Shown in pieces: positions 8,433-11,230 of a DNA stretch of 64,000 nt. A model generated the notes under the pieces. It was given only the letters and a program-made list of their open reading frames with translations. It was not told the DNA's origin and did no database searches. Each line of letters opens with the position of its first letter. Position 1 is the stretch's first letter. The stretch comes from an uncultured Pseudacidovorax sp. (GTDB lineage: Bacteria; Pseudomonadota; Gammaproteobacteria; Burkholderiales; Burkholderiaceae_C): positions 1-64,000 of the forward strand of contig NZ_CAJYES010000153.1 of assembly GCF_913773995.1 (NCBI RefSeq), written 5' to 3'. Made by a program: the position numbers and the translations under genes.

Positions 8433-9028
8433 GCCGTCACCTCCGTCGCCATGCAGGCACCGATCACGCGGTCCAGCCGCTCGGGCGAGAGCCGCGCATG
8501 CGGCCGGCCATCGAGCATGGCGGCCGGCGACTGGGCGCACAGGCCCAGGCAGTAGACGGGCTGCAGCGTCAGCGAACCGTCGGGCCGCGTGCCGCCGGCC
8601 TCTGGCAGGCCCAGGCCCTCGCAGGCGTGCCGCCAGAGTGCGTCGGCACCCATGGACTGGCAGGCCTCGGCGCGGCACACCTCCAGCACATGGCGACCGG
8701 CGGGTTCGCTGCGGAAGTGGTGGTAGTAGCTGACGACGCCGTGCACCTCGGCGCGCGACAGGTTGAAGCCGAGCGCGATCTCGCCCACGACCTCGGGCGG
8801 CACGCAGCCCAGGGCGTCCTGCACGTCGTGCAGCGCGGGCAGCAGGCCGCCGCGCTGCAGGGCATGGCGCGCGACGATCTCGCGGACGGTGGCCAGGCGC
8901 GGATCGGCGGCTTCGGCGGGGGCGCGGCCCAACTGGCGCAGGCGGTCGCGCAGTTCGTCGGGGGTGGCGAGCACGCGTTCGCTGCGAACGCGTGCGGGGC
9001 CGCTGGGCGGTGTCGGGGTCTGGGCCAT
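8429..9028 (-). CDS. fdsG: NAD-dependent formate dehydrogenase gamma subunit (NuoE-like)
   Basis: 199 aa; EIALGFNLSRAEVHGVVSYYHHFRSEPAGRHVLEVCRAEACQSMGAD and CLGLCAQSPAAMLDG 2Fe-2S motif; overlaps fdsB start. Confidence 0.93.
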   Translation of the reverse strand: MAQTPTPPSGPARVRSERVLATPDELRDRLRQLGRAPAEAADPRLATVREIVARHALQRGGLLPALHDVQDALGCVPPEVVGEIALGFNLSRAEVHGVVSYYHHFRSEPAGRHVLEVCRAEACQSMGADALWRHACEGLGLPEAGGTRPDGSLTLQPVYCLGLCAQSPAAMLDGRPHARLSPERLDRVIGACMATEVTA

Positions 9029-9237
9029 CGTGGGGCGGTCACCGGTCGCTTGGGTGCCGCGCCAAGGGCGGGTGGGCGGCAGCCGGGCGGTGACAGTGGA
9101 GTTGTCTCGGGCCGAGTGTCCGTGCGGGGGGTGCCGGTCGCAAATTGCTTCGCGACATGGGGTGATTCAAGGAATGAATGGGCCGGGGGTGTGAGGTGAA
9201 TGGCGTCGGTGACTGGTGGTTGGTGCCGTCGTGGTCG

Positions 9238-9318
9238 GACGCGCGAGAGGCAGGTGCTAACCCGGCAGAGGACGCCGGACGCGCGAAGGCAGGGGTGCTA
9301 ACCCGGCAGAGGACGCCG
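9238..9318. repeat. ~40-bp imperfect tandem duplication (GACGCGCGA..GGCAG..GTGCTAACCCGGCAGAGGACGCCG x2)
   Basis: Read directly: two adjacent near-identical copies at about 9238-9277 and 9277-9318. Confidence 0.85.
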
Positions 9319-9456
9319 GCATGCGCGCTCCCGGTGCACGCTCGCGCTGACCGGCTTGTTGCACAGGGCGGGTGCTCGCTCTCCACCGACGCGCCTGCCG
9401 CACTGCACGGCGCCGCGAATGGCACCTCCGCACGCACACCGTCATCCTCCGCCTCG
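9281..9456 (+). repeat. Left arm of a large imperfect inverted repeat
   Basis: Reverse complement of about 9785-9960 aligns with few mismatches (shared core ...CTAACCCGGCAGAG..GCCGGCATGCGCGCTCCCGGTGCACGCTCGCGCTGACCGGCTTG...GGGTGCTCGCTCTCCACCGACG.GCCTGCCGCACTGCACGGCGCCGCGAATGGCACCTCCGCACGCACACCG). Confidence 0.9.
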
Positions 9457-9623
9457 ACGCTGCGCGCGAGCCCTCCCCTGTTCAGGTCGTGGGGTCTTGA
9501 GGCCCATCAGAGCCGTGGAATCGTTAAGTTCAGGGGGCCGCGGGATCTCGGGGTGCTAGCCCTTGTCCTGGCCCTGGTACCGGGTTCCTCACATTCTGGG
9601 ACGAGGCGGGTCAGTCAACCCAA

Positions 9624-9650
9624 GACCGTTCGGGCTGAGCCTGTCGAAGC
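9624..9650 (+). repeat. REP-like palindromic unit, left copy
   Basis: GACCGTTCGGGCTGAGCCTGTCGAAGC; near reverse complement of unit at 9717-9746. Confidence 0.75.
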
Positions 9651-9716
9651 CTCGCCCCTGAAGCTTGCGCTGAGGCGGAACAGGATGGCCGAGCCGTTGC
9701 GCCGCGCGCCGCTCTG

Positions 9717-9746
9717 CCCTTCGACGAGCTCAGGGCGAACGGGGTG
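9717..9746 (-). repeat. REP-like palindromic unit, right copy
   Basis: CCCTTCGACGAGCTCAGGGCGAACGGGGTG, inverted relative to 9624-9650. Confidence 0.75.
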
Positions 9747-9784
9747 AGGCCCCGGGCGGCCGAACCGGCAGTGCAGCCGCACAG

Positions 9785-9960
9785 TCCAGGCGGAGGGTGC
9801 CGGTGTGCGTGCGGAGGTGCCATTCGCGGCGCCGTGCAGTGCGGCAGGCACGTCGGTGGAGAGCGAGCACCCGTCTGATGAGGCAAGCCGGTCAGCGCGA
9901 GCGTGCACCGGGAGCGCGCATGCCGGCGCCCTCTGCCGGGTTAGCGTCCCTGCGTCTCGC
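9785..9960 (-). repeat. Right arm of the large imperfect inverted repeat
   Basis: See left arm; also produces matching spurious ORFs on opposite strands. Confidence 0.9.
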
Positions 9961-9962
9961 CC

Positions 9963-10010
9963 GCCCCGTCGCCCCGTCGCCCCGTCGCCCCGTCGCCCTG
10001 TCGACCCGTC
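9963..10010. repeat. 8-bp tandem repeat, 6 copies (GCCCCGTC x4, GCCCTGTC, GACCCGTC)
   Basis: Read directly from sequence. Confidence 0.93.
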
Positions 10011-10144
10011 GACCCTTCAATCCGTCGGCCCTTCAATCCGTCACCCGTTGACCAGCCAACCAGCGACCAGCGCAATGGGCAATGGAAAAACCGAAAGCCA
10101 CAGAACGCAGGCAAGGCGACCAAGGAGCGCCACGTTCCACCCCC

Positions 10145-10249
10145 TCAGCGCCCGATGTTGAACAGCCAAAGAAAGAAGCGCCCCACCATCACCAGCAGCT
10201 CCCACAGCGCCCGCAGCGCGTCCAGCAATCCGGCTTCAGGCGGCACCAC
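10145..10249 (-). CDS. Candidate ~34-aa hydrophobic microprotein (VVPPEAGLLDALRALWELLVMVGRFFLWLFNIGR)
   Basis: GTG start(s) at 10249/10246 preceded by GAAGGGAG Shine-Dalgarno-like sequence; one predicted transmembrane segment; starts about 30 nt after the LysR stop codon; not in supplied ORF track. Confidence 0.5.
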   Translation of the reverse strand: MVPPEAGLLDALRALWELLVMVGRFFLWLFNIGR

Positions 10250-10279
10250 GGCGACTCCCTTCGACAGGACGCATGGCCA

Positions 10280-11230
10280 TCACGCCGCCAGCGCTCCGCC
10301 ATGCGCCCGCAGTTCGCCCAGCCACTCGGGCGACTGCAGCAGCACCAGCGCCGCCTCCAGCGCCCGCGAAGGCCGCACCGCCGCCGGCGCCATGAAGCCC
10401 AGCGGCGTACGCACCGTCGGCCCCACGAGCGGCTGCGCCACCAGGCCAGGCTGGCCGCGCACGGTGTCGACCATCGCGCCCGGCAGCACCGCGCACACAT
10501 CGCCGGTCTGCACCGCCAGCACCAGCGTGAGCACCGAATTGGTCTCGACTGCCGGCGCCACCCCCGCCGCACCCGCCTCGGTGAAGGCGGCGTCGATGAT
10601 GGCGCGGTTGTGCATCTCGGGCGTGAGCAGGCACAGCGGCAGCGCCGCCGCCTCGGCCCAGCCGATGGGCTCACCCATCTGCAGCACCGCGGGCGTCGGG
10701 CTTTCGGGGGATGTGCGCAACAGGAAGTAGTGCTCCTCGATCTGCGGCCAGGTCTGCAGCGCCTTGGCCGCCGGGCCCTGCCGGCCGGTGTAGCCCAGGG
10801 CCAGGTCGATGGCCAGGTGGTCCAGCCCGGTCTCCAGTTCCAGCGAGCTCATCGACAGCACCGTCGGCACGATGCCCGGATGCCGCACGCGCAGTCGCGC
10901 TGCAAAGCGGCTGAGCAGCGGGATGGCCGTGGGCACGGCCGCCATGCGCAGACGCCCGCGTGGCTGGCCGGCCTCGCTGCGCAACTGCTGCTGCAGGCGC
11001 TCGTGCTCGTGCAGCATGCGGTGGGCGCTGGCCAGCACCTGCTCGCCCTCGGGCGTCAGGCCCGCATAGGCCCGGCCCCGACGCACGATGGCCACACCGA
11101 ATTCGGCCTCCAGCGCCCGCATGGCGTTGGACAGCGCCGGCTGCGTGATGTGGCAGGCCGCCGCGGCCCGGCCGAAATGCCGGTGCTCGGCCAGGGCGGC
11201 AAGGTAGCGCAGGGAGGCGAGGAGGTTCAT
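10280..11230 (-). CDS. LysR family transcriptional regulator (possibly formate dehydrogenase regulator FdsR)
   Basis: Start set at MNLLASLRYLAALAEHRHFGRAAAACHITQPALSNAMRALEAEFG, classic LysR HTH; assignment to fds control is positional inference. Confidence 0.9.
   Translation of the reverse strand: MNLLASLRYLAALAEHRHFGRAAAACHITQPALSNAMRALEAEFGVAIVRRGRAYAGLTPEGEQVLASAHRMLHEHERLQQQLRSEAGQPRGRLRMAAVPTAIPLLSRFAARLRVRHPGIVPTVLSMSSLELETGLDHLAIDLALGYTGRQGPAAKALQTWPQIEEHYFLLRTSPESPTPAVLQMGEPIGWAEAAALPLCLLTPEMHNRAIIDAAFTEAGAAGVAPAVETNSVLTLVLAVQTGDVCAVLPGAMVDTVRGQPGLVAQPLVGPTVRTPLGFMAPAAVRPSRALEAALVLLQSPEWLGELRAHGGALAA

Follow-up and report, generated by a model that had tools for sequence, protein, structure and literature searches.

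The fdsG-LysR gap

The window, a stretch of 64,000 nucleotides from an uncultured Pseudacidovorax sp., contains, both on the - strand, an operon for formate dehydrogenase and a gene for a LysR-type regulator; the gap between them spans positions 9029 to 10279. An earlier sequence-only reading of this DNA had named the neighbors correctly. On one side stands fdsG, scoring above the cut-off of the NCBIfam model for formate dehydrogenase subunit gamma and followed by genes of the fdsB and fdsA types; on the other stands the LysR-family regulator.

A repeat search of the window identified two inverted arms in this gap, 9289-9464 and 9778-9953, each 176 nt long, 91% complementary and separated by 313 nt; the sequence-only reading had placed the same arms to within about 10 bp. 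Allowing one gap lengthens the match to 9277-9465 versus 9778-9967. The tandem duplication at the left arm and the 8-bp array beside the right arm, both reported earlier, are present (Table 1), and there is no transposase open reading frame (ORF) inside the element, as had also been stated. Folded as RNA, 9238-10010 yields -572.8 kcal/mol compared to a shuffle mean of -398.6 (z = -20.4), far beyond chance. A search for intrinsic terminators (a G+C-rich hairpin followed by a T run) found 0 in 9000-10320, and a simple sigma-70 scan at the locus found no promoter-like site.

Table 1. Features of the repeat element between fdsG and the LysR gene (positions in the window)
Feature	Position	Strand	Details
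Left 149-nt unit	9305-9453	-	Closing stem 9433-9453 with 9305-9325 (GGCGGAGGATGACGGTGTGCG / CGCATGCCGGCGTCCTCTGCC); reads outward from the loop, to fdsG; covariance model 126.1 bits (G000:C153:9305-9453:-)
Right 149-nt unit	9789-9937	+	Closing stem 9789-9809 with 9917-9937 (GGCGGAGGGTGCCGGTGTGCG / CGCATGCCGGCGCCCTCTGCC), 21/21 positions paired, G.U counted; reads outward from the loop, to the LysR gene; covariance model 131.4 bits (G000:C153:9789-9937:+)
Variable spacer (loop) between the units	9454-9788		Sequence and length differ among orthologues
Inverted pair of a short REP-like repeat, inside the spacer	9625-9742		About 9625-9650 and 9717-9742; core CTGAGCCTGTCGAA / TTCGACGAGCTCAG
Tandem duplication (period 41), outer end of left unit and flank	9238-9319		26/26 nt identical (9253-9278 = 9294-9319)
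8-bp tandem array beside right unit	9962-10017 (end approximate)		CGCCCCGT; orthologues have unrelated arrays at the same place

The short REP-like sequence in the spacer is a separate dispersed repeat, with its core at 9635 and 9720 and dozens more copies in the genome. It is absent from the spacer of some copies of the element, such as L047.

A family of paired 149-nt units

The element belongs to a family whose units fold with a polarity and occur mainly as pairs. A dispersed intergenic repeat family was among the explanations offered by the sequence-only reading, and it is borne out: the element recurs at 11 further places in the same genome, on 11 other contigs of the 261-contig assembly, with arms mostly 85 to 97% identical, and has many copies in relatives. 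The true copy number in this genome may be higher, because several copies sit at contig ends. The arms are multi-copy and show no coding-like evolution, which leaves the dispersed reading standing. Protein coding in the arms was considered for the outward frame (VRAEVPFAAP...) and rejected, as this frame contains a stop in 32 of 150 units and its third codon positions are not enriched for variation.

Searches with a covariance model found 1 to 28 units in each of 12 of the 15 genomes of the genus (Pseudacidovorax/Xenophilus) and none in the other three; genomes G003 and G014 are unit-free. In the wider taxonomic family, the Comamonadaceae, units are present in at least 34 of 301 genomes and at least 22 of 141 sampled genera, both lower bounds since ten candidates were scored per genome. 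Copy number spans 1 to about 34 units, and the distribution is patchy. Of 349 genomes drawn from the order, about 340 belong to other families; matches were confined to this one family. Phage and plasmid collections contained no match to the element, and a phage or plasmid origin was therefore rejected.

Comparison of distant copies shows each arm closed by its own inverted repeat, indicating that the folding unit is the single arm and not the arm pair. The unit has a median length of 149 nt, constant to within a few nucleotides across genera. A stem of 21 bp closes it, its core is nearly invariant (GCCATTCGCGGCGCCGTGCAGT and GCGCGA...GGAG..CGCA within the genus) and its middle is variable. 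The window copy has a conserved GGGTTAG-like tail at the 3' end of the unit; REPs carry a GTAG or CGTC tag at the foot of the hairpin. The GTTAG-like tail prompted us to consider a relationship to integron attC sites, which we dropped because the attC core-site pattern does not seem to fit.

Across 166 distinct units, 83.4% of stem pairs are Watson-Crick, and the rest comprise 529 G.U, 3 A.C and 47 others; unit strand was set at extraction by geometry (loop outward), and reading the opposite strand would turn G.U pairs into A.C mismatches. A second set, 79 distinct units of other genera that did not enter the training of the model, has 89% of its stem positions paired; shuffling 5' against 3' halves among these units gives 57% on average and 60% at most. 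Because the stem is part of the model that set the ends of these units, the figure may be modestly biased. Shifting the register by 1 to 3 positions reduces Watson-Crick pairing in the 79 units from 78% to about 31%. They contain 187 G.U versus 16 A.C pairs, with several pair types at most stem positions. The stem thus covaries across sequences in both sets, as in structured RNAs; it is not the sequence-conserved terminal inverted repeat of a miniature inverted-repeat transposable element (MITE), since its sequence changes while its pairing stays. Together, covariation and the G.U/A.C polarity provide strong evidence that every unit has retained the ability to fold on a single strand of one polarity, RNA or single-stranded DNA, read outward from the loop. 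Covariation alone does not say which of the two it is, but because one particular strand must fold, the choice between them is directly testable. No Rfam family matches, the best hit being a sub-threshold chance match in the spacer.

Nearly all units are paired head to head, with the - unit on the left and the + unit on the right, around a spacer of about 45 bp to several hundred. The complete genome G105, from another genus, contains 14 compact pairs with a spacer constant at 48-49 bp, several of them 96 to 100% identical across about 450 bp and sited at unrelated places. An outer inverted repeat starting with GGCNGYTNNCGGCCC lies beyond the pair in this genome, bringing the element to about 462 bp in total (L267-L278). 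The related genome G653, from which the element is absent, has a matching GGCCGCGAGCAGCC at the right-hand junction.

In two Xenophilus genomes, each of 13 of 13 pairs joins one A unit to one B unit, with identities of 93 to 95% (A-A), 93 to 96% (B-B) and 76 to 78% (A-B). This A+B pairing is what spread of a whole two-ended element would leave, and the low A-B identity shows that resemblance between the arms is not required. The sequence-only reading had also raised a very long hairpin that insulates fds. This finds no support, as pairing is preserved within each arm, with each stem still paired in Xenophilus where the arms are only about 76% alike, and no terminator T run is present. The long hairpin between the arms appears incidental, the result of two homologous units standing head to head.

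Age, setting and decay of the copies

The fdsG-LysR copy is common to the window genome, P. intermedius DSM 21352, RU35E and NFM-22; its conserved position in at least four species marks it as old. We also compared the syntenic gap in an element-free relative, as the sequence-only reading had proposed: in the fds-bearing genome G003, which has zero units genome-wide, the gap is about 0.2 kb. Between the window copy and the other three, the units differ by 5 to 9%, fourfold sites of fdsG by 17 to 20%, and the loop and left flank by about 15 to 22% plus indels. Comparing the three closer relatives with one another gives no clear sign that the units change more slowly than the flank. Constraint on the unit is therefore real, yet partial. 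The two arms of this copy appear to have traded patches of sequence. Most other loci in the genus are likewise common to several species, by a loose clustering used qualitatively only, so that the copies are mostly old. Movement in Pseudacidovorax/Xenophilus is thus rare or past, and the near-identical G105 copies at unrelated sites indicate that the pair can spread.

The elements are intergenic, with one doubtful gene overlap among 134. Where both neighboring genes were called (67 elements, using a simple in-house codon-usage caller), 34 gaps are convergent, 30 tandem and 3 divergent, compared to 16, 93 and 57, respectively, for the remaining gaps of 80 bp or more on the same tiles. The associated p-value of 1e-12 is inflated, because orthologous copies are recounted and the gene caller is simple; the bias has the same direction in every genome. 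Genes ending towards an element do so at a median distance of 110 to 260 bp.

In the 200-bp flanks, 20.5% of the sequence is short tandem array, and in the spacers 14.5%; the share is only 0.9% in other intergenic DNA and 1.2% in the units themselves. The arrays are of unrelated sequence and differ even among orthologous copies, which suggests that repeated slippage beside the hairpins makes them.

Copies also show decay and REARRANGEMENT. Relative to one of the NFM-22 copies, the metagenome-assembled genome G009 is missing 498 bp. The loss is bounded by 6-bp GCGTGC repeats, which lie in the two arms, and what remains is a short palindrome. We considered G009 as an empty site, an insertion polymorphism relative to NFM-22, and rejected this because its sequence is that of a 498-bp hairpin-type deletion inside an existing element. 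At one other locus, a single unit is present in ALPHA2B and pairs are present in E41 and DSM 19424. Further, the flanks of two elements are swapped between Xenophilus E41 (L104, L169) and X. aerolatus DSM 19424 (L145, L178), from a|b + c|d to a|c + b|d, consistent with an inversion via recombination between two copies. With roughly 20-fold more tandem-array sequence in the flanks than in other intergenic DNA, and elements at the breakpoints of this apparent inversion, the family offers a natural system for palindrome-driven genome instability.

A REPIN-like reading and its rivals

We favor, with moderate confidence, the reading that the fdsG-LysR element is one copy of a dispersed, non-coding, giant REPIN-like non-autonomous element. 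It consists of two 149-nt units head to head around a variable spacer, each forming a hairpin on the outward-read strand, with the 21-bp stem closing the conserved core. The spreading entity would be the pair, whose two ends may act as single-strand hairpins recognized in trans by a putative enzyme; the presumed parallels are RAYTs on REPINs and TnpA on IS200/IS605 ends. Copies in Pseudacidovorax/Xenophilus are mostly old and inherited at fixed sites, where they decay by losing one unit or through hairpin-type deletions, gather tandem arrays at their edges and can act as rearrangement breakpoints.

REPINs are known as inverted doublets of REP sequences that show compensatory changes, with singlets taken as decayed doublets (PMC3116915). 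The element shares with these doublets, also called BIMEs, the inverted hairpin repeats, variable spacer, intergenic location and lack of an ORF, as well as compensatory changes, apparent remnants in the form of singlets, occasional tandem clusters and probable spread in trans. It differs in its unit, 149 nt with its own 21-bp covarying stem and conserved core, whereas a REP is by definition a short palindrome of 20-40 bp (PMC3733652). Here there are about ten pairs rather than hundreds, and no RAYT is flanked by units. REPINs are therefore the closest known kind; the element behaves like one, and membership fails on unit size and a cognate RAYT. ERIC, YPAL and NEMIS/Correia, palindromic intergenic repeats of about 100-170 bp (compiled in PMC2267715), resemble the unit in length, intergenic location, RNA hairpins and non-autonomy, but by description are single elements of enterobacteria, Yersinia and Neisseria, whereas the element studied here is head to head and from another lineage. 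Imperfect hairpins at both ends are also found in IS200/IS605-type elements and their palindrome-bearing derivatives; in known systems, these hairpins are active as single strands. Here, no tnpA lies inside or beside the element, and the hairpins are far longer. Finally, covariation is of the kind that defines structured RNA families, but the unit matches none of those in Rfam and behaves as a dispersed repeat.

The family of non-coding repeats is apparently undescribed. We found no description in Comamonadaceae in a literature search covering few subscription journals, and the main text of a large REP survey has no entry for Burkholderiales, Acidovorax or Comamonas (PMC3733652). REP/REPIN-type repeats are usually tiny. 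Against that background, a unit of 149 nt whose fold is directional and covaries, and which occurs in at least 22 genera and lies outside Rfam, is unusually informative.

The sequence-only reading had proposed a non-autonomous mobile element. This is plausible given the near-identical G105 copies at unrelated sites; a target-site duplication and a mobilizing enzyme were not found. No target-site duplication was seen in the G105 copies, the comparisons made gave no clean empty site, and G206, G651, G653 and G655 are too diverged from G105 for an insertion junction to be read. Exactly one RAYT-like Y1 transposase gene is present per genome in 14 of the 15 genus members (for example, G000:C113:32271-32540), and we considered it as a cognate RAYT. 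It was rejected since units do not flank it (none in the 4-kb neighborhoods of the eight genes examined). The gene is also present in the unit-free genomes G003 and G014.

The unit is several times the length of a REP, and its core exceeds the obvious needs of a transposase binding site, both of which argue against the REPIN-like reading. It is possible, though we hold the idea only tentatively, that the 149-nt unit instead represents a new class unrelated to REPs, a functional RNA or single-stranded DNA substrate whose core would bind a specific partner and which would have spread across Comamonadaceae as head-to-head pairs.

The main rival to the REPIN-like reading is a host function at gene 3' ends, which we regard as unlikely. 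Here, a read-through transcript would read antisense unit, spacer and sense unit and fold into a hairpin that would stop exonucleases, attract RNase III or keep convergent read-through in check. Such a host-adopted RNA element would account for the strong bias towards the 3' ends of genes and away from divergent promoters, for the stem polarity and G.U tolerance typical of RNA, and for the slower change of the units relative to fourfold sites between the window and its relatives. However, insertion-tolerant sites suffice for the same location bias, as with REPs; there is no terminator-like T run, slower change in the units than in the flank is not evident among the three closer relatives, and three genomes of the genus manage without units.

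An independent structured RNA with a function of its own (or two divergent small RNA genes, each transcribed away from the spacer), spread by duplication, seems improbable. The steady 149-nt length across genera, nearly invariant core and covariation would fit, but the spacers are variable and rich in tandem arrays and other repeats, the sigma-70 scan revealed no promoter-like site, and units are patchily distributed in widely varying numbers.

More doubtful again is a classical MITE, with terminal inverted repeats recognized by the DDE transposase that moves it. The inverted termini, the lack of an ORF and the extra outer inverted repeat in G105 resemble one, but stem sequence that is free to vary while paired is not predicted for recognition of double-stranded termini, a G.U/A.C asymmetry is meaningless in duplex DNA, and no target-site duplication was seen in the G105 copies. 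A cruciform or insulator that evolved specifically for the fds operon is scarcely credible: the long hairpin is very stable, but the copy is one of many beside unrelated genes, a dispersal that already refutes this idea, no terminator or promoter-like sequence was found there, Xenophilus arms are too dissimilar, and G003 has fds without the element.

Some units depart from the compact head-to-head pair. In G303 (L264, L265 and L266), direct tandem arrays of units with a period of about 205 bp replace head-to-head pairs, and one of these arrays ends beside a terminator-like hairpin. Of the widest pairs, one in G016 surrounds a lipoprotein-like ORF and one in G144 the ORF of a HARE-HTH protein; we considered both as autonomous versions of the element and rejected this, as neither ORF is a transposase. 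In the G144 case (L262:1024-2290), the units lie about 1.1 kb apart around an ORF at 1267-2124 with a HARE-HTH domain (Pfam PF05066), the C-terminal part of which appears GIY-YIG-like by eye.
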